A model generated the notes under the pieces. The model saw only the letters and a program-made list of their open reading frames with translations, had not been told where the DNA came from and searched no databases. Positions 6,224 to 14,710 of a stretch of DNA of 37,030 bases are shown piece after piece. The position numbers and the translations under genes were made by a program. This stretch comes from Marine Group III euryarchaeote CG-Bathy1 (GTDB lineage Archaea > Thermoplasmatota > Poseidoniia > MGIII > CG-Epi1), in contig MIYU01000002.1 of NCBI GenBank assembly GCA_001875425.1, positions 1-37,030 on the forward strand. The letters run 5' to 3'. The number at the start of each line of letters is the position of its first letter. Positions within the stretch are counted from its first letter, which is position 1.

Positions 6224-7110
6224 TTGGTTAATACCTCATTACCATTATTGGTAACCAATAAAGTGTGTTCAGACTGGGCAACAATTCCATTACCTAATTC
6301 ATCTAGAACTGGATAATATGATACGATACCAGCACGCATAAGTTTTTGTAAGCTTTTAGTCGCATCATCCTGAAATTCATGCAACCATCTTTCTGCAAAG
6401 GGTAATCCCTTGTATCTATCTTGAATTTCTTTCATAAGCTCAGTTGCTTTTTCGTCTCTTACTTTTCGTATTTGTCTTAAATGATAGATATTGGAATTTC
6501 TTTTACCACCAACACGACCTGCACCATCTGTAACAAATGGTTCAATTGCTACGATGTCTCCATTATTTAGTGTAGGACCTCCTCTTTCTCTAACACTTGG
6601 AATTGATACTCCACTATGCAGATTGTATCTTTTTATCCGGTGTCCAGTTAAATTAGCTATAGGTCTATATCCGTATTTTTCAATAGTGTCCTGTACTGCA
6701 TGGCCAATAATTCCTACATTGACACCAGCAACTGTAACATTAATTGCAGCATTTAGTGCTTCTCTTGACGCTTCAATCATTTTGGTGTAATTTGTAGACC
6801 CAATCTCTAAAGTTAATGCATTATCTCCAATGTATCCATCAATATGAACTCCTACATCCAGTTTTACAACATCGCCCTTGCAAAAGGTTTCACTACTTTT
6901 ACTTGAGGGTGTCCAATGAGCTCCCACATTATTAATTGCTAAATTAGTTGGAAATGCTAATTCTCCACCATTTTTCTTGACAAATAGTTCAATTTCTTCA
7001 GTTACATTTAACATTGATTTTTCTGCTTCAATCAAGTCTCTTCCAAAATGCAACGCATTTCTGGCTAATTTTCCTGCAGTTTTCCATTTTTCTATTTCTT
7101 CAGGATTCAA
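6220..7110 (-). CDS. map: Methionine aminopeptidase, type II (archaeal MetAP)
   Basis: Cytosolic dimetal enzyme that removes the initiator methionine. From TTG 7110 it is 296 residues, the usual archaeal MetAP length, and starts LNPEEIEKW. Active-site residues by motif: His65 (GAHWTPS), Asp85 (KLDVG), Asp96 (GDNA), His157 (TGHRI), Glu190 (AIEPF) and Glu281 (QSEHTLL), spaced as in Pyrococcus MetAP2. An open frame continues upstream to 7146. TTG 7110 is chosen because a GGAGGG Shine-Dalgarno (7116-7121) sits five bases before it and homology begins there. The start overlaps the end of sua5 by 11 bases, and the stop overlaps the ClC start. Confidence 0.94.
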   Translation of the reverse strand: MNPEEIEKWKTAGKLARNALHFGRDLIEAEKSMLNVTEEIELFVKKNGGELAFPTNLAINNVGAHWTPSSKSSETFCKGDVVKLDVGVHIDGYIGDNALTLEIGSTNYTKMIEASREALNAAINVTVAGVNVGIIGHAVQDTIEKYGYRPIANLTGHRIKRYNLHSGVSIPSVRERGGPTLNNGDIVAIEPFVTDGAGRVGGKRNSNIYHLRQIRKVRDEKATELMKEIQDRYKGLPFAERWLHEFQDDATKSLQKLMRAGIVSYYPVLDELGNGIVAQSEHTLLVTNNGNEVLTK

Positions 7111-7678
7111 GCATTCCCTCCAGAATAGTAGAGTATAAAGCACCAATGCGCGTTATTTCGGGTTTGCTCTCTGTTAAATCAATAATGGTAGATTCAATAC
7201 CCTTTGGTTCTTCTCCATTAAGATAGTGGCAATTCGAACCAAATATTTCTTTTGCTTCATCTAAGCTTCTTGCAATTTTACCTCCGTGTAAATTTACACT
7301 TGTGGTTACTATTGGTTGGTTTGCAGCTAAATCTAGTGCAGTATTGTTTAGAGGTACGCGGATTGCAATATTCCTATTTCTAGTAACGCCTTTGGCAAAT
7401 TCTTTTTTAGATTTAAGTATTAGAGTTATTGGTCCTGGTAAAAATTCTTCAACAATCTTTTTTACTTTTTTATTAACTTCACAAAAATCATAAATTAAAT
7501 TTATATCGCTTAGCATAATGCTCAATCCGTCTATTTTCTTACCTTTGATTCTAAATAGTTCATCAACAGCCTTTTGATTAAAAGGATCACATCCCATGCC
7601 CCAAACAGTATCTGTAGGATAAATCACAATTTTTCCATTTTGAATTGTCTTCTTAGCCTCATTAATGGAAACCATCAT
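7100..7678 (-). CDS. sua5: L-threonylcarbamoyladenylate synthase (Sua5/YrdC/YciO family)
   Basis: Makes threonylcarbamoyl-AMP from Thr, bicarbonate and ATP, the first step of t6A37 tRNA modification. KEOPS/Kae1 performs the second step. The 192-residue product is a stand-alone YrdC domain. It contains YPTDTVWGMGCD (residues about 20-31), KGKKIDGLSIML, the LPGPITLIL core (84-92), a KSKKE loop, RNIAIRVP (103-110) and TTSVNLHGG (126-134), all typical. Full-length Sua5 with its C-terminal domain is longer, and only the catalytic domain is present here. It begins with ATGATG (7678 or 7675), with CATTAAAAG about 23 nt upstream. A Pcc1-like KEOPS domain is encoded 4.1 kb away at 11799-12731. Confidence 0.92.
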   Translation of the reverse strand: MMVSINEAKKTIQNGKIVIYPTDTVWGMGCDPFNQKAVDELFRIKGKKIDGLSIMLSDINLIYDFCEVNKKVKKIVEEFLPGPITLILKSKKEFAKGVTRNRNIAIRVPLNNTALDLAANQPIVTTSVNLHGGKIARSLDEAKEIFGSNCHYLNGEEPKGIESTIIDLTESKPEITRIGALYSTILEGMLES

Positions 7679-7715: not shown

Positions 7716-8897
7716 TTATCGTTGTTCAATCGGTCTAAATGTACGGTCTATAGGCCCTACATATCTAGCCCTTGGTCGAATAAGTCTATTATTACGATAT
7801 TGTTCTAAAACATGTGCAGTCCATCCAGCTATTCTTGACATAGCAAATAGAGGAGTAAACAAATCTTTTGGAATATCAAGCCCATAGAGGAGAGGTGCGG
7901 AATAAAAATCAACATTAGTTATGATTTGTTTCCTGTCCTTGACCTGTTTTTCAATTTCTTCAGCTACTTCAAAAAGTTCCATATTGCCTTTCTCTTCCCA
8001 AAGTTGCTTAGCCATTTTCTTTAGATGCGGTTTACGAGCATCATCAACTTTGTAAACCCTGTGTCCGAATCCCATTATTTTTTGTTTGGAATCGAATGCA
8101 TTTTGTATATAGGCTGAGGCTTTCTTCTTTTTCCCAACTTCTATAATCATATCCATTGCTTTTTCATTAGCACCTCCATGTAGTGGCCCGCTTAGTGTCC
8201 CTACAGCAGAGGTGATGGCTGAGTGTAAATTGGCTAATGTTCCTGCCGTTACTCTAGCTGAAAAAGTGGATGCATTAAATCCGTGGTCAGCCAGTAAAAT
8301 AAGATATAAATTTAGTGCATTTATTTGTATATCACTTGGATCTTTACCATGCAGCATTCTGAGAAAATCTTCAGAATGGCCTTTGGTTGGATCTGCTTTA
8401 ATGATTGGTAATTTTTCTCTTAATCTATGTATAATTGCAACAGCTGTTGAGATTTGCCCTACTAATCTTAGTGCTTTAGGTGGTAATTCTTTAAGAGGCA
8501 CATTTTTTTCATAGTGCCCCAAAACGGAAACAACTGTTCTTAGTGTGCTCATTGGAGAGGTTTTCCCTACTAATTCAGTAATCACTTTTATTACTTCATC
8601 AGGCAGAACTCTTGCTTCACCCACTTTTCTTGTCATTTCATCCAAGCGTTCTTGGTTTGGCAATTCATTATCATAAAGCAAGCAAATGGTTTCTTCAAAA
8701 GTTGAGCTGAACGCCAAATCATCTATATTGTATCCACAATATCTTAAGATTCCTTTTTCACCATTGACTGAGCTTAGAGTCGTATCTGCTGCAACAATTC
8801 CTTCTAATCCTTTTACAGGTTCGGAGACTGAGTCTTTGTTATCTTTTGGAAGAGACACATTTTCACAGTAAAGACTATGATATTTAGTATTTGCCAA
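7716..8897 (-). CDS. gltA: Citrate synthase
   Basis: Condenses oxaloacetate and acetyl-CoA to citrate at the entry to the citrate cycle. The 393 residues fit the short archaeal/Gram-positive type. Catalytic residues by motif are His240 (SGPLHGGANE), His279 (MGFGHRVYK) and Asp330 (TNVDFYSAPLLY). Arginines of the substrate site lie in GHRVYK and the C-terminal RARYVGP segment. The N-terminal LEGIVAADTTLSSVNGEKG is also characteristic. A methylcitrate synthase role cannot be excluded from sequence alone. The gene starts immediately after the MazG-type gene's stop, so the two are cotranscribed. Confidence 0.95.
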   Translation of the reverse strand: MANTKYHSLYCENVSLPKDNKDSVSEPVKGLEGIVAADTTLSSVNGEKGILRYCGYNIDDLAFSSTFEETICLLYDNELPNQERLDEMTRKVGEARVLPDEVIKVITELVGKTSPMSTLRTVVSVLGHYEKNVPLKELPPKALRLVGQISTAVAIIHRLREKLPIIKADPTKGHSEDFLRMLHGKDPSDIQINALNLYLILLADHGFNASTFSARVTAGTLANLHSAITSAVGTLSGPLHGGANEKAMDMIIEVGKKKKASAYIQNAFDSKQKIMGFGHRVYKVDDARKPHLKKMAKQLWEEKGNMELFEVAEEIEKQVKDRKQIITNVDFYSAPLLYGLDIPKDLFTPLFAMSRIAGWTAHVLEQYRNNRLIRPRARYVGPIDRTFRPIEQR

Positions 8898-9233
8898 TTA
8901 TTCTTGATGGTATTTAGTAACACGAATCCCTAGATCGCCTTTTATTGCCGGTCGTTTCATTATCTCTTTCATTTTAAGGTCAAAAGCAGATTCTAAATCA
9001 ACATCCATTGCGATAGCATGGCCTAGAATTAAGATTAGAATGTCTGCCAATTCCTCTGCTTTTTCAGATTCAGGTTTTCCTTTTGTAAAACATTCAGATA
9101 ATTCACCTAATTCTTCAATAGTTAGCAATATTCGGTAAGCCATATCATGACCATTATTTTCTTTTTTACTAAATTCATGCTTGTCATGGAATTCTTTTAC
9201 TTTTGTCAACATATCAGCATAAGTTTGACTCAT
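8898..9233 (-). CDS. MazG-type nucleotide pyrophosphohydrolase
   Basis: Small all-alpha NTP pyrophosphatase, likely a house-cleaning enzyme hydrolysing non-canonical NTPs or dNTPs to NMP and pyrophosphate. The 111 residues form a single MazG domain. The Mg-binding motif is E41-L-G-E44, followed by E61-L-A-D64 (EELADILILILGHA), the classic ExxE...ExxD pattern. The C-terminal helix has KMKEIMKRP, which often follows in these proteins. The stop codon abuts the citrate synthase start. No clear TATA box was seen at the expected distance upstream. Confidence 0.88.
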   Translation of the reverse strand: MSQTYADMLTKVKEFHDKHEFSKKENNGHDMAYRILLTIEELGELSECFTKGKPESEKAEELADILILILGHAIAMDVDLESAFDLKMKEIMKRPAIKGDLGIRVTKYHQE

Positions 9234-9285: not shown

Positions 9286-10743
9286 CTAAAATCTAAAGTA
9301 AATAAAATCGCTTGTATCTACAGGTTTTAGCAGTATTGCTAAAGACAGCATAATGCCAGTTACAAGAGCCCATTTAGGAGGAGAAAGCTTTGCAATTACG
9401 TTCTTTAAACCATTATACTTATAGCTCATATAATGCATAATAAGGAAGGAAGGAACCAATACAAGTAAGTGGAAATACATAGGCCCTGAAAAACTAGAAT
9501 TGAAAATATCCCAATTAAAATTTGCATTGTAGCCTAATGAAGTTTTTAGGGCCACGTTAAGCATATGATCATCCTGGAGTCTGAATATGAGCCATGTCCA
9601 GAAAATAAATAGTTGTGTCAAAAGTAAGCTTGAAAAGCCAAAAGATACTGGAAAATCATTCTTTAACTTTTTTACAAATCCATTATCTCTCACAATTTTA
9701 TGAGCTAAAATCGCTATTCCATGCATTATTCCCCAAATAATAAAATTCCAACTAGCGCCATGCCATAGCCCACCTAAAATCATAGTAATCATTGTTGCTT
9801 TGATTAAGACATTCATTCCTCCTTTACTTCCACCCAATGGGAAGTAAAGATAATCTCTTAGCCACGTTGACAAAGAAATGTGCCATTTTCTCCAGAATTC
9901 TTGAGGATTATGGGCAAAATAAGGGTGCTTGAAATTTTCAGGTAAGTCTATACCAAAAAGTTTTGCAGAACCTATAGCAATATCAGTATAAGCTGAGAAA
10001 TCTGCATATATTTGTATTCCAAAGAATAATGCTCCACACCAAACTAACCAAAAATTTGTTAGATCCTGTTCAACTGTGAATAAGTTATTTACTTGTATAG
10101 CAATGTTGTCTGCTATAACAAATTTCTTGAACAATCCATATATTATGAATGTTAAACCAATTTTCAAATTATTTTCCTTGAATACTAATTTTTTGGTAAT
10201 TTGAGGATTGAAATGTGAATATCTAACTATTGGACCTGCCACTAGTTGGGGAAAGAAAGCCGCATAACAAGCAAAATCAATTAATGATTCTTGTGGTTTT
10301 ACTTTTTTTCTATAGACATCTATTGTGTATGACATTGTTTGAAAAGTATAGAAAGAAATTCCAATAGGTAGTAATAAATTGATTTTTGCAATTTCAGGGA
10401 TTATAGGATAGATGTGAATTAAGGCGTTATAATTTCCAATAAAGAAATTAAAATATTTAAAAATCCCTAAAATAGATAGATTTGTTATTATGCTAAAAAA
10501 AAGGAATTTTTTCTTTTGATTCTTATTATTTGCTTTATCAATGGATTTTCCACAGTAAAAATCCACTAATGTTGACATAAAAAGTAAAAGTATGTAAAAA
10601 CCTGAAGCCAAATAAAAAAAGACATAACTGAGTAGTAAAAGTGAAGATATTTGTTTATTACGAGAATTATAAAAAATTAGGAAGCAGGCCAATAATGCTA
10701 CAGGAATGAAGAGATAATAATATTCTGGTGTTGTGAAATTCAT
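9286..10743 (-). CDS. MBOAT-family membrane O-acyltransferase (AlgI/DltB-like)
   Basis: Multi-pass membrane enzyme that transfers acyl, usually acetyl, groups to extracellular glycans or similar polymers. The 485 residues have about ten hydrophobic segments. AlgI landmarks are LPIGISFYTFQTMSY (about residues 123-137), FPQLVAGPIVRY (about 164-175), the HNPQEFWRKWHISLSTWLRDYLYFPLGG region, and GGLWHGASWNFIIWG carrying the proposed catalytic His. It overlaps the upstream SGNH-like gene by four bases (ATGA), reproducing the acyltransferase-plus-partner gene pairs of AlgI/AlgJ or DltB/DltD systems. No glycan-synthesis cluster is next to it, so the acceptor is unknown. Confidence 0.93.
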   Translation of the reverse strand: MNFTTPEYYYLFIPVALLACFLIFYNSRNKQISSLLLLSYVFFYLASGFYILLLFMSTLVDFYCGKSIDKANNKNQKKKFLFFSIITNLSILGIFKYFNFFIGNYNALIHIYPIIPEIAKINLLLPIGISFYTFQTMSYTIDVYRKKVKPQESLIDFACYAAFFPQLVAGPIVRYSHFNPQITKKLVFKENNLKIGLTFIIYGLFKKFVIADNIAIQVNNLFTVEQDLTNFWLVWCGALFFGIQIYADFSAYTDIAIGSAKLFGIDLPENFKHPYFAHNPQEFWRKWHISLSTWLRDYLYFPLGGSKGGMNVLIKATMITMILGGLWHGASWNFIIWGIMHGIAILAHKIVRDNGFVKKLKNDFPVSFGFSSLLLTQLFIFWTWLIFRLQDDHMLNVALKTSLGYNANFNWDIFNSSFSGPMYFHLLVLVPSFLIMHYMSYKYNGLKNVIAKLSPPKWALVTGIMLSLAILLKPVDTSDFIYFRF

Positions 10744-11789
10744 AGGTGTCCTTTTTCATTAAGAAATTTTGCAAAATTACTTGAATAATTTTTTCGCCCT
10801 TCATAATCCAAATGTGTTAAATCAGCAAAAGTATAATTTTCACTATAAAAATGGTTATAGTGTGTTATATTGTATTTTTTTTCTAATTTGTTTACCGAAG
10901 AATTATAATTATCCCAAAAGTTTTCAGGTGCATTATTGATAGCCAATGGGTTTATGGGTTGTGATTGGAAAACAACATCTATCCCATTAGAGATTAATGA
11001 ATTCACCATAATTTCAATAGAAAAAAGATTTATGGATTTTTCAATATTATTTGAGAAAAAACTTCCTTTTTCATCATAGAAACTATCCATTAATTGCAGT
11101 AATTCACTATCATTTTTCACACTGTAATTTCTAGCAGGATTCTTCATATCGATTTCTTTCGCGTCTGAAGAAAGACTGTTTCTAATACCTTCGTTTAGAA
11201 TATCCTGTCTATATTTATTCCAGAAAAGAGTTTTTTCTATAGAGTTATCTACAAGGTATTTCTCATGTTCTTCTAGTATGTTTTCTCTCCAGTATTTTTG
11301 TTCGTTTTCATTTTGGATTGTACTAGCTAGTCCTATTCTTAGTTCAATAATAGGTTCTAGATAATCTAAATTTGATATATTTGTGAATGTATTTGGTGTT
11401 ATTTCTATTATTACTAAGTCTGGTTTTGCTTCAATTATCTTTGGAATTTCTAGCAATCGAAGATAAGGTATATCTGATGAGCTTCCTAAATTATAGCAGC
11501 TTAGAGAATCGTCATAGTTCTCAATTACTATGCAATCGATATCCTCTCTTGTCATTGAAGAGCCCAAAAAGATTACTTTGTAGTTTTCATCCTCTTTTAT
11601 ACTTTCAAATCTTCTGTAAATTTGATTTTGTTCGGCATGAAAAGTTGAATCTTGATCCATATTACTAAGATATAAATGATAAGTTATTGGATTTGAAAGT
11701 ACAAAAATAATAATTCCTGTGGTAATTAAGTTAAAAAATAATGGCCTTAATCCTGCAAAGTTTTCAATGAAATCCATCTTAGGTTGCAT
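10740..11789 (-). CDS. Membrane-anchored SGNH-hydrolase-like partner (AlgJ/DltD-like)
   Basis: Probably the extracytoplasmic partner of the MBOAT protein encoded next to it. The 349 residues begin with one membrane segment (about 18-36), and the rest is likely outside. The nucleophile block is IFLGSSMTRED (GSS at 76-78), and the C-terminal Asp-x-x-His block is ADLTHLD (Asp323, His326). Both are placed as in SGNH/GDSL-like proteins. Sequence similarity to DltD or AlgJ proper cannot be judged by eye, so the name is by architecture and context. It starts nine bases after the stop of the PP-loop/Pcc1 gene. Function as acyl carrier or transfer partner is inference. Confidence 0.75.
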   Translation of the reverse strand: MQPKMDFIENFAGLRPLFFNLITTGIIIFVLSNPITYHLYLSNMDQDSTFHAEQNQIYRRFESIKEDENYKVIFLGSSMTREDIDCIVIENYDDSLSCYNLGSSSDIPYLRLLEIPKIIEAKPDLVIIEITPNTFTNISNLDYLEPIIELRIGLASTIQNENEQKYWRENILEEHEKYLVDNSIEKTLFWNKYRQDILNEGIRNSLSSDAKEIDMKNPARNYSVKNDSELLQLMDSFYDEKGSFFSNNIEKSINLFSIEIMVNSLISNGIDVVFQSQPINPLAINNAPENFWDNYNSSVNKLEKKYNITHYNHFYSENYTFADLTHLDYEGRKNYSSNFAKFLNEKGHL

Positions 11790-11798
11790 TTAACTCGC

Positions 11799-12731
11799 TT
11801 ATTCTTGTTTTGAAACTTTTTCAGCTACAGACAAACAAGCCATAAAGTCTTCAGCAGCTTTCCTCAGACTTCCTAGATTTTCAGCTTTAACTGTAGCCTT
11901 AATCAAATTGTCTTCAACAACAGTATCCACCCATCCAGCATTCTCAGGTTCAGTTGCTTTCGCAATAGATTCTGCAATCTTTTTATTCTCGAATTTGATT
12001 TTGAATTCAATTTTGTGTTTAATTATATCTTTTATGGCTTTTTGGCTCCCACTACCATATTGGGCCGCTTTTTTTTTTCGGTTTGCTATATCCTCAGGCA
12101 AATCAAGTTTAGATGCAGCTTCACGAAGTGGTAATTTTCCAACTTTACCAATACGTTCCCTTATTGTGAATTTTTCAGCCGCTTCGATAACATCTTTTGA
12201 TAAGTAGGGACATGACAAATTTCGATTGAAAAATTCTGCTATTTTTTTCTCTCTCTCTGGTAAACGATTTATCAAATCATTGACTTCTTTAGTAAGATTA
12301 TTTTTAGTATTTTCCTTTCTGAAACGAGCATACCCTCCAAATAATTCATCAGCCCCTTGTCCACACATTAATATCGGGTTTTTAGAGTTCTTAGCAGCAA
12401 TCCAGAATGGAAGCATGAATTCAACTTCTATAGGCCTTAATTTCAATTCTTTTTGCATGTTAATGCCTTCCAATACCATTTTGCTTGGTTCAACAACAAT
12501 AGTCCTTAGTTTCATATCCATCAGTTTGGCAGCAGATATTGCAGCATCTAAATCATAAGAATTCGGCGTTCCAACTGCAATCAATTCTACGTCGGTGAAT
12601 TTTCTAGCTAAAAATGCAACTAAACTAGAATCAATACCTCCTGAAAAGGCAACAGTTACTGACTCTTTGCAGGATTTCTCAACAGATGTTTCGATAGCTT
12701 CGCATAGCCGTTCAAGACGGTTCTTTTTCAT
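11799..12731 (-). CDS. Asparagine-synthase-like PP-loop ATPase fused to a Pcc1-like domain
   Basis: Residues 1-235 form an asparagine-synthetase-type ATP-pyrophosphatase domain with the PP-loop SGGIDSS (30-36) and CGQGADELFGGYARF (123-137). The N-terminal glutaminase domain of AsnB is absent, so amide nitrogen or another substrate must come from elsewhere. Residues about 241-307 look like Pcc1, the small KEOPS dimerisation subunit: IEFKIKFENKKIAESIAKA, then a strand, LIKATVKAENLGSLRKAAEDFMACL and VAEKV. Pcc1 helps KEOPS bind tRNA and form t6A. The join is in frame with no stop or frameshift. ATG 12731 overlaps the TBP stop (TAATG). I infer a tRNA- or KEOPS-linked ATPase, but an Asn-synthase-like amidotransferase is possible. 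Confidence 0.8.
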   Translation of the reverse strand: MKKNRLERLCEAIETSVEKSCKESVTVAFSGGIDSSLVAFLARKFTDVELIAVGTPNSYDLDAAISAAKLMDMKLRTIVVEPSKMVLEGINMQKELKLRPIEVEFMLPFWIAAKNSKNPILMCGQGADELFGGYARFRKENTKNNLTKEVNDLINRLPEREKKIAEFFNRNLSCPYLSKDVIEAAEKFTIRERIGKVGKLPLREAASKLDLPEDIANRKKKAAQYGSGSQKAIKDIIKHKIEFKIKFENKKIAESIAKATEPENAGWVDTVVEDNLIKATVKAENLGSLRKAAEDFMACLSVAEKVSKQE

Positions 12732-13282
12732 TATGAAGCAATGCCACTCTCAATCATGAATTTTTCTAATTTATTCAATGCTTTCTTTGCTTTCGCCATG
12801 CTAATAATGTCTGTAACTATTAAAACTCCAGATTGGAAAATAACAAAACTAGCATTTGGTTCATCCATCCTTAAGACTAATCCTTTGAAACGGATTGGAT
12901 CGTATTCAGCTCCAGGTATTGCAAGAGCTAGAGCCTGAAGATCGAGAGTCGTTCCTAGATTGCTTCTGACAACCATGTTTTCTAATTTTATTGCCCTCTT
13001 CATTTTTATTTTGGGGTCTATAGCTTTGATAATCTTTCTTAAATCTGATATAAGATCTTTTCCAGTTTCTAATGATTCTACACCAGTCACTATAATTTTC
13101 CCATTTCCAAATAATACTCCTGCAGCTTTTTTATCATTTGCAGCATCCATTTCTATTATTACTGAGGGATTGCCTGAACTTGAGTATCTAGCATTAGGTA
13201 ATTCAGTTGCCAGCTTTATCAGTTCAACATCTTTGCCGAGATGGGATGCGACAATTATGTTCTGTATTTTTATGGGACCCAC
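12731..13282 (-). CDS. tbp: TATA-binding protein (TBP), first repeat diverged
   Basis: General transcription factor that binds box A and recruits TFB and RNA polymerase. The 183 residues make two TBP repeats (about 4-90 and 97-175). The second repeat is canonical: NMVVRSNLG, AEYDPIRFKGLVLRM (Phe132) and FVIFQSG (Phe149). In the first repeat, YSSSGNPSVIIEM has Asn38 where TBP normally has the DNA-intercalating Phe. Phe58 in VLFGNGK is kept. The start is GTG 13282, supported by a TATA element about 26 nt upstream. The stop overlaps the PP-loop/Pcc1 gene. It could be one of several TBP paralogues. Confidence 0.93.
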   Translation of the reverse strand: MGPIKIQNIIVASHLGKDVELIKLATELPNARYSSSGNPSVIIEMDAANDKKAAGVLFGNGKIIVTGVESLETGKDLISDLRKIIKAIDPKIKMKRAIKLENMVVRSNLGTTLDLQALALAIPGAEYDPIRFKGLVLRMDEPNASFVIFQSGVLIVTDIISMAKAKKALNKLEKFMIESGIAS

Positions 13283-13320: not shown

Positions 13321-14325
13321 TCAAGCAAATTCATCAAATGGATAAGGTTCAGGCTCTCTTTTACCCATTATAATCTGAGTTTCTGGAACTGTTAAAAGAG
13401 GCATAGGCCATGTAGGTCCATCCTCTATAGCTAATCTTGGACAAGCAGTAATAACAGCTGCATCTATTCCTAATCCTAATAATTGTTCATGTGATTGATG
13501 TATACTTCCAATCATAATTGTTTCTTTACCATTCTCATTCAGTAAGTCAGTTATTTTGTCTGCTAAGTCTATTCTTTTTTGTCCAATTTGGTTGGAAAAA
13601 AGTACTGCCCATCGTCTTGCTTTTTGGGCCATAGCCATTGCCGCATAACGTTGTTTCAAGAATGGTTCTGGGTCCGCTACAGTAATATCACCATTATGAG
13701 GTTCAAGACAAGCAACAGGTTTACCTGATGAGAGGGCAACGGTCAGTGGATGAAACAGTCCAGTTCCAATGTATAAATAACCATCAACATTTAATTTTCT
13801 AGCAGCTGATGAATTACATCCCAGTAGTTGTCCGGCAGCAGCTAATCTTGGCCCACCTGTTGTTACACTCGTATCAAACCCTTCATCATCTAAAATTTTT
13901 CCTGCGAGATCAATCATATGCAAATGTTGAGCAGTAGTGACAATTCCAATTTTATTAGGAAGTATTTCTTTTAATTCAGTAATTGCCTTTTTAGAAAGAG
14001 AAAGTTTCCCAGTGTGCCTTACAGGAACAAAAAAAGTAGGAATTGCATAAAATTCAGAATGATAAGGCATTGGTAAATGTCCCATATGAATTAGTGCATC
14101 AGCCCCTATTTCTTCTAAAGGCCGATCTGCTAAATCACAAGCCCCGTATGTTGGCTCTCCCCACAGAACAACTTTAGCTCCCGTCAATTTAGTTATTAGA
14201 GTTACGATTTCATGAGATTTAGTTTTTAATCCTTCAGGAACTTGAATTCCAATTCTTTCTTTCCCCTTTATTTTTAGGCATACCTCTTCAATTCCAGGTT
14301 TCCAATCAAATGTTACTTCACTCAT
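13321..14325 (-). CDS. dph2: Diphthamide synthase Dph2 (2-(3-amino-3-carboxypropyl)histidine synthase)
   Basis: Radical-SAM-like [4Fe-4S] enzyme that transfers the aminocarboxypropyl group of SAM to a histidine of EF-2, the first step of diphthamide synthesis. The 334 residues carry the three cluster cysteines at the expected places in the three-domain fold: Cys63 (TYGACDLAD), Cys170 (LLGCNSSA) and Cys295 (ITACPRLAIED). These match Cys59/163/287 of the Pyrococcus enzyme in spacing. Other signatures are QVPEGLK (28-34), HMGHLP (80-85) and YIGTGLFHP (185-193). A box CATTATATC about 27 nt before the ATG (14348-14358) supports a leaderless start. Confidence 0.95.
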   Translation of the reverse strand: MSEVTFDWKPGIEEVCLKIKGKERIGIQVPEGLKTKSHEIVTLITKLTGAKVVLWGEPTYGACDLADRPLEEIGADALIHMGHLPMPYHSEFYAIPTFFVPVRHTGKLSLSKKAITELKEILPNKIGIVTTAQHLHMIDLAGKILDDEGFDTSVTTGGPRLAAAGQLLGCNSSAARKLNVDGYLYIGTGLFHPLTVALSSGKPVACLEPHNGDITVADPEPFLKQRYAAMAMAQKARRWAVLFSNQIGQKRIDLADKITDLLNENGKETIMIGSIHQSHEQLLGLGIDAAVITACPRLAIEDGPTWPMPLLTVPETQIIMGKREPEPYPFDEFA

Positions 14326-14371: not shown

Positions 14372-14710
14372 TTATTTTAGAGTGATTAGACGAATTTCTA
14401 GCAACTTTTCAAGAAAAAGTTGTACCCTATCTGTAGCAGGAGCTACGTCTTCTCCAAATTGTTCATCAAAATCAGTAATTATATCTAATATTGAATTTTC
14501 CCCATCACATAGTTTCCAAATATGGGAAGTATATTTGTCAAGCGGTCTTCTAACTTCGTCAGGACCTCCTATTCTTTCATGTAACCATTTTTCTAATTTT
14601 CCGAAATTCTTAGGATATGTTATAACAATTATATCATTTTCGTATTCCCATTTTATGTTTTCATCTGAGGTTCTTACAGGTTTTTTTAGAAGTAATTCTT
14701 TTTTATTCAT
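14372..14710 (-). CDS. PqqD-like (RiPP recognition element fold) small protein
   Basis: The 112-residue protein has a C-terminal half that fits the PqqD family: YTSHIWKLCDGENSILDIITDF (residues about 60-81, quoted as extent; key SHIWKLCDG) followed by DRVQLFLEKLLEIRLI, the winged-helix pattern of PqqD and RiPP recognition elements. The N-terminal half (IKWEYENDIIVITYPKNFG and WLHERIGGP) is not typical. PqqD normally holds a precursor peptide for a radical SAM enzyme, but neither is visible nearby, so this may be a stand-alone family member with another job. The ATG overlaps the stop of the micro membrane protein (ATGA). Confidence 0.75.
   Translation of the reverse strand: MNKKELLLKKPVRTSDENIKWEYENDIIVITYPKNFGKLEKWLHERIGGPDEVRRPLDKYTSHIWKLCDGENSILDIITDFDEQFGEDVAPATDRVQLFLEKLLEIRLITLK

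Follow-up and report, generated by a model that had tools for sequence, protein, structure and literature searches.

What does a PP-loop ATPase do with a C-terminal domain that resembles a subunit of the tRNA-modifying complex KEOPS? The question is raised by positions 11799-12731 of a 37,030-nucleotide stretch of Marine Group III euryarchaeote DNA (the window), for which a preliminary description had proposed a fusion of an asparagine-synthase-type ATPase with a Pcc1-like domain. We examined whether the fusion is real, which KEOPS subunit the tail represents and on what substrate the enzyme may act.

Domain architecture of the fused protein

We found that an open reading frame of 310 amino acids plus stop occupies exactly the proposed span. 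It is encoded by the minus strand, from 12731 to 11799; the preliminary description had left the strand unnamed, and the plus strand of the same interval contains in-frame stops. The motifs quoted in that description (SGGIDSS, GQGADELFGGYARF, FKIKFENKKIAESI and GSLRKAAEDFMACL) were all found in the minus-strand translation. The gene and its domains are:

11799..12731, minus strand: fused PP-loop (AsnB-type)-Pcc2 gene, 310 amino acids plus stop
12027..12731, minus strand: AsnB-type synthetase (PP-loop) domain, residues 1-235, without glutaminase (Pfam Asn_synthase, Foldseek)
11802..12017, minus strand: Pcc2-type domain of the Pcc1 family, residues 239-310, beta-alpha-beta-beta-alpha (Pfam, NCBIfam, model)

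The N-terminal part was matched by Pfam Asn_synthase (1.8e-25, residues 11-155). The frame starts about 23 residues ahead of the PP-loop strand, so there is no N-terminal Ntn domain and the glutaminase is absent, as had been noticed. The tail exceeded the curated cut-offs of two Pcc1 models, Pfam PF09341 (23.2 bits against 20.9, residues 242-306) and the NCBIfam KEOPS Pcc1 model NF011470 (41.2 bits against 27, residues 241-307), and PF09341 was matched by 12/12 fused tails tested.

Searched against the PDB as a single sequence, the tail gave chance-level matches only, so profiles and structure were needed. In an AlphaFold2 model of the whole protein (mean pLDDT 87) the tail folded as beta-alpha-beta-beta-alpha, and the isolated tail (pLDDT 85) was likewise predicted to have the Pcc1 fold. 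When Foldseek was run with the tail alone, the 18 best PDB matches were all chains of Pcc1/Pcc2/KEOPS structures, with query-normalised TM-scores of 0.71-0.87 to Pcc1/Pcc2 chains.

These results also deal with the reading that the tail is the normal C-terminus of Asn-synthase-like proteins. Nothing was found in its support. The curated Pcc1 matches and the fold speak against it, and the non-fused relatives are shorter, mostly stopping about 15-45 residues past the RKKKAAQYGSG motif without a Pcc domain; the Pcc2 domain takes the place of their short C-terminus. We regard this reading as ruled out, its likelihood being practically nil.

Conservation and gene neighbourhood

Examination of relatives, which the preliminary description had suggested, found the fusion, intact or as an edge fragment, in 19/21 Marine Group III genomes from three genera, at 43-89% identity. 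The exceptions, G017 (65% complete) and G018 (60% complete), contained only a Pcc-less paralogue. Because independently assembled genomes share the architecture over this range of identity, it is neither a chance event nor an assembly artefact, and the PP-loop-Pcc2 fusion is real. Among the genomes compared, it was absent from the other two families of the class, which we infer to be Marine Group II. No description of such a fusion was found in the open-access papers searched, and the architecture is apparently undescribed so far.

The assembly to which the window belongs contains a second TBP-fusion pair, 64% identical (G000:C20:3412-4326; L002, L026). Its sequence is close to the copies of genus g2, and it probably reached the draft, whose listed contamination is 5%, from another genome.

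The fused gene lies in a conserved run, dph2-TBP-fusion-MazG-citrate synthase-Sua5, represented in the window by:

13321..14325, minus strand: dph2 (diphthamide biosynthesis; profile matches), upstream of the TATA-binding protein gene
12731..13282, minus strand: TATA-binding protein (TBP) gene, whose stop overlaps the ATG of the fusion (TAATG)
8898..9233, minus strand: MazG-like gene, directly following the fusion in most relatives
7719..8897, minus strand: citrate synthase, a conserved neighbour
7103..7678, minus strand: Sua5/TsaC, threonylcarbamoyladenylate synthase, one domain (TIGR00057, PF01300)

TBP, named as a neighbour in the preliminary description, was thus confirmed directly upstream. 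In relatives, the fusion is followed by MazG-like, citrate synthase, Sua5, methionine aminopeptidase and ClC-type channel genes. The Sua5 gene product scored 162 bits with TIGR00057 against a cut-off of 123, with PF01300 also matched, and its place as a downstream member of the run is kept in relatives. Together, the fusion and this gene context suggest a link of the fused protein to t6A.

In the window, an MBOAT (DltB-like) gene and a partner of 349 amino acids are found between the fusion and MazG (9286-11789, minus strand). This pair is a local insertion, as MazG directly follows the fusion in most Marine Group III relatives. A small PqqD-like protein is encoded just upstream of dph2 (14372-14710, minus strand) and is kept in the Marine Group III run. 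Since dph2 lies in the neighbourhood, a role of the fusion as a substitute for a Dph6-like diphthine amidase was considered and ruled out, Dph6 being present (PF01902, 1e-64). Dph6 is encoded close to Cgi121, within about 2.5 kb (G000:C1:77233-79570).

The fused domain is of the Pcc2 type

Pcc1 and Pcc2 are known to differ in box 2, which is N-S/T in Pcc1 and two acidic residues in Pcc2 (PMC9889334). Alignments identified the corresponding pair in the fused protein:

11847..11852, minus strand: box-2 pair Glu294-Asp295, the Pcc2 signature (Asn-Ser/Thr in Pcc1)

Glu-Asp was found throughout the aligned fused tails and Asn-Ser in the standalone Pcc1 of the same genomes. In hhalign comparisons, the fused-tail profile matched standalone Pcc2 with 6e-25 (score 122.8) and Marine Group III Pcc1 with 4e-7 (score 37.9). 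Fused tails and standalone Pcc2 also fell on one side of the tree with moderate support (94/86). A profile built from fused tails only did not separate Pcc1 and Pcc2 in the PDB. Judged by these sequence comparisons, the tail is the Pcc2 (fifth-subunit, Gon7-like) paralogue rather than Pcc1, so that the two domains of the original proposal stand while the naming of the second does not.

The preliminary description had called the arrangement novel if the gene were the only Pcc1 of the organism. It is not, as the genome carries its own standalone pcc1 (C12:47537-47740), found in the search for a separate copy that had been recommended. The fused domain seems instead to be its sole Pcc2. Marine Group III genomes usually carry a single standalone Pcc1 plus a single fusion; no standalone pcc2 was found in those searched, most of the genomes compared being incomplete drafts. 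Cgi121 was found in 15/21 of the Marine Group III genomes. In the sister families of the class, both Pcc1 and Pcc2 types occur as free proteins.

Active site and relatives of the synthetase domain

Three motifs of the synthetase domain were compared with those of relatives:

12624..12644, minus strand: PP-loop SGGIDSS, residues 30-36, ATP pyrophosphate binding; positions invariant or nearly so in 31-34 relatives
12330..12362, minus strand: GQGADELFGGY, residues 124-134, with Gln125 at the position of human ASNS Glu-364
12048..12080, minus strand: RKKKAAQYGSG, residues 218-228, including the position that in AsnB and beta-lactam synthetase is the catalytic Lys

The PP-loop and catalytic-Lys motifs were nearly invariant across fused proteins and relatives, and Asp128/Glu129 are retained in GQGADELFGGY. 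Gln125 was present in every fused protein. In human ASNS, Glu-364 is needed, and E364Q abolishes ammonia-dependent activity (PMC6748925). As Gln125 is also common to the wider archaeal family, it does not by itself exclude asparagine synthesis. Glu102 replaces an Arg of AsnB; the same Glu is found in beta-lactam and carbapenam synthetases and, of the archaeal sequences compared, only those of the fused branch have it. The curated AsnB model TIGR01536 gave 91.9 bits, below its cut-off of 267. With the whole model, the first Foldseek matches included beta-lactam synthetase (1mc1, 7e-12) and AsnB (1ct9, 9e-11), the best being beta-lactam and carbapenam synthetases.

On one reading, the PP-loop part serves as a regulatory or non-catalytic module that senses ATP or ammonia and thereby steers the assembly of KEOPS. 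Pcc2 does set the oligomeric state of KEOPS (PMC9889334), and Gln125 could abolish amide formation. The retention of the PP-loop and catalytic Lys motifs across 43-89% identity argues against a sensor, and we consider it distinctly unlikely.

In the tree, the fused PP-loop domain fell inside the Thermoplasmatota set, with archaeal AsnB-like proteins as its nearest relatives. Glutaminase-less AsnB-like proteins of about 250-290 amino acids are common in Thermoplasmatota and also occur in DPANN and Altiarchaeota; full-length versions were found in Methanobacteriaceae, Methanococcaceae and Thermococcus. Absence of the glutaminase is therefore not special to the fusion, being shared with its closest non-fused Thermoplasmatota relatives.

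Non-fused PP-loop genes showed no regular adjacency to KEOPS genes in the loci compared, which weighs against the KEOPS-tethered reading given below. In Methanomassiliicoccales-type genomes, the non-fused gene lies beside a Mur-ligase/FolC-like gene and an endonuclease III-like gene. In one Thermoplasmata lineage, a free Pcc1 gene is preceded at about 2.5 kb by a PP-loop gene and followed by a prefoldin-like gene (L105:5983-9457, L144:2257-5763). Two apparent Pcc1 fusions in the GC-rich loci L105/L144 were rejected because they look like start-site artefacts, with a spurious extension before a normal Pcc1.

A probable tethered synthetase and its possible substrates

The curated matches, the Pcc2 typing, the genome complement, the presence of Sua5 in the run and the retained motifs together support a reading that we consider probable: the protein is the Pcc2 subunit of Marine Group III KEOPS, equipped with an N-terminal glutaminase-less AsnB-type synthetase as a tethered amide-forming enzyme. 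Pcc2 binds Pcc1 at its dimer face, blocking KEOPS dimerisation while leaving t6A synthesis active (PMC9889334). If the fusion behaves likewise, every KEOPS complex would carry one synthetase. By pairing with the separate Pcc1, the Pcc2 domain would dock the protein on Kae1-Bud32-Cgi121 and, like known Pcc2, hold the complex in its monomeric state. In the PP-loop domain, Mg-ATP would be bound and a carboxylate adenylated; an amide would then form as AMP is displaced by free ammonia or by an amine of the same molecule. Such adenylate-then-amide chemistry is established for the AsnB family.

Free L-aspartate, converted to asparagine, has somewhat less than an even chance of being the substrate. 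AsnRS exceeded its cut-off in 16/21 Marine Group III genomes and no AsnA was found in those searched. GatB-family matches were nearly all full-length frames of 570-590 amino acids, which we read as GatE. Full-length AsnB was found only in G013, G015 and G017, most Marine Group III genomes being without it, and in G002 (97% complete) the fusion is the sole Asn_synthase protein. Given this combination, the fusion is the leading candidate for an asparagine synthetase, most clearly in G002.

The same genome content, along with the archaeal AsnB-like proteins as nearest relatives and the Methanobacteriaceae relatives that adjoin homoserine dehydrogenase, an aspartate-pathway gene, would also suit a plain ammonia-dependent asparagine synthetase whose fusion to Pcc2 merely co-produces or co-localises two unrelated proteins. 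Several points speak against this, and all but the last of them also against aspartate as the substrate of a tethered synthetase: Glu-364 is replaced by Gln and the Arg of AsnB by Glu, family f17 has PP-loop proteins without AsnRS, and asparagine uptake is a possible alternative source. Near-complete genomes of that family (G073, G081, G108, G117) gave no match to AsnRS yet retain AsnB-like PP-loop proteins, and most of these genomes have two. We take such a merely co-localised synthetase to be a serious possibility, though not one that we favour.

The second likeliest substrate of the tethered synthetase, at somewhat lower odds than aspartate, is a carboxylate that KEOPS would deliver on tRNA or on a precursor of tRNA; the remaining probability falls to another metabolite or to no activity. 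More specifically, with the tRNA held by KEOPS, the PP-loop domain could amidate or cyclise a tRNA carboxylate, such as the t6A37 threonyl carboxylate or the cm5 group at U34. Its fusion to a KEOPS subunit and the Sua5 gene in the same run are consistent with this, as are the fold matches to beta-lactam and carbapenam synthetases and the Glu102 shared with them. In those enzymes, ring closure follows carboxylate adenylation.

Another point in its favour comes from a second, Pcc-less PP-loop paralogue in Marine Group III genus g2, which starts 3-4 nt after elp3 in 10/10 loci (L180:2348-4787, L024-L025, L028-L034, L202). As of 2019, the enzyme converting cm5U to ncm5U was unknown in any organism (PMC6412123), and the paralogue is a candidate for the cm5U34-to-ncm5U34 amidating enzyme. 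However, elp3 adjoins the Pcc-less gene and not the fusion, it is not a neighbour of most Thermoplasmatota PP-loop genes, and no RNA-binding domain was seen in the PP-loop part of the fusion. On balance, amidation or cyclisation of tRNA by the fused domain seems unlikely.

The tree neighbours of the Pcc-less paralogue were DPANN proteins (Diapherotrites, Nanoarchaeota). Across the phylum, elp3 adjacency was not seen in the positions compared, except for the Marine Group III paralogue and the syntenic group L086/L091/L097. The elp3 gene itself is present in Marine Group III and most other Thermoplasmatota and was not found in the listed genomes of sister families f2 and f3 (G021-G059). One Thermococcus contig (L126:4989-8530) carries in succession, in the same orientation and about 25-45 nt apart, a glutaminase-bearing AsnB-like gene, a glycosyltransferase gene and a two-domain Sua5 gene; the AsnB-like gene, two genes before Sua5, may give a weak independent hint of a link to tRNA modification.

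In its most far-reaching form, the tRNA reading would make KEOPS of Marine Group III bifunctional: one complex would threonylcarbamoylate A37 and, through the Pcc2-borne amide- or ring-forming synthetase, use ATP to convert a carboxylate of the tRNA (t6A or cm5U), the elp3-linked paralogue being the cm5U34-to-ncm5U34 enzyme. We hold this combination to be improbable.

To our knowledge, little is understood of what the fifth KEOPS subunit, Pcc2/Gon7, does. A Pcc2 permanently joined to an amide-forming ATPase is a direct, testable hint that Pcc2 can dock other enzymes, and suggests that KEOPS holds a further chemical activity besides its tRNA modification. The analysis also brings to light a family of archaeal AsnB-like proteins with an active site that departs from human ASNS at a residue which the human enzyme requires to form asparagine. 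Its other Marine Group III member, travelling with elp3, would supply a long-missing activity if it is the cm5U-to-ncm5U enzyme.

Comparison with known systems

Apparently, what is new is the conserved joining of Pcc2 to an AsnB-like ATPase, both component families being already known. Archaeal Pcc2 (PMC9889334; 'Pcc1-like' in PMC10989989) has the same fold and acidic box-2 pair and a separate Pcc1 alongside, but is free-standing and about 85 amino acids long, whereas in the 310-residue fusion it follows an enzyme domain as the C-terminal part. The synthetase domain of AsnB (1ct9) shares the PP-loop, GxGxDE, the catalytic Lys and the fold; the fusion differs in lacking the glutaminase, in having Gln for Glu-364 and Glu for the AsnB Arg, and in its extra Pcc2 domain. 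Beta-lactam synthetase and the carbapenam synthetase CarA, the best Foldseek matches, have Glu at the position of Glu102, yet the fusion lacks their N-terminal domain and has another substrate context. Glutaminase-less AsnB-like PP-loop proteins of Thermoplasmatota are about 30-38% identical to the fusion and share the RKKKAAQYGSG signature; unlike it, they have no Pcc2 domain and most have Ser at position 102. The Ubl-Cgi121 fusion of Thaumarchaeota (PMC2948915) likewise joins a KEOPS subunit to a protein from a different pathway that may be tRNA-related, but both the subunit and the partner differ.
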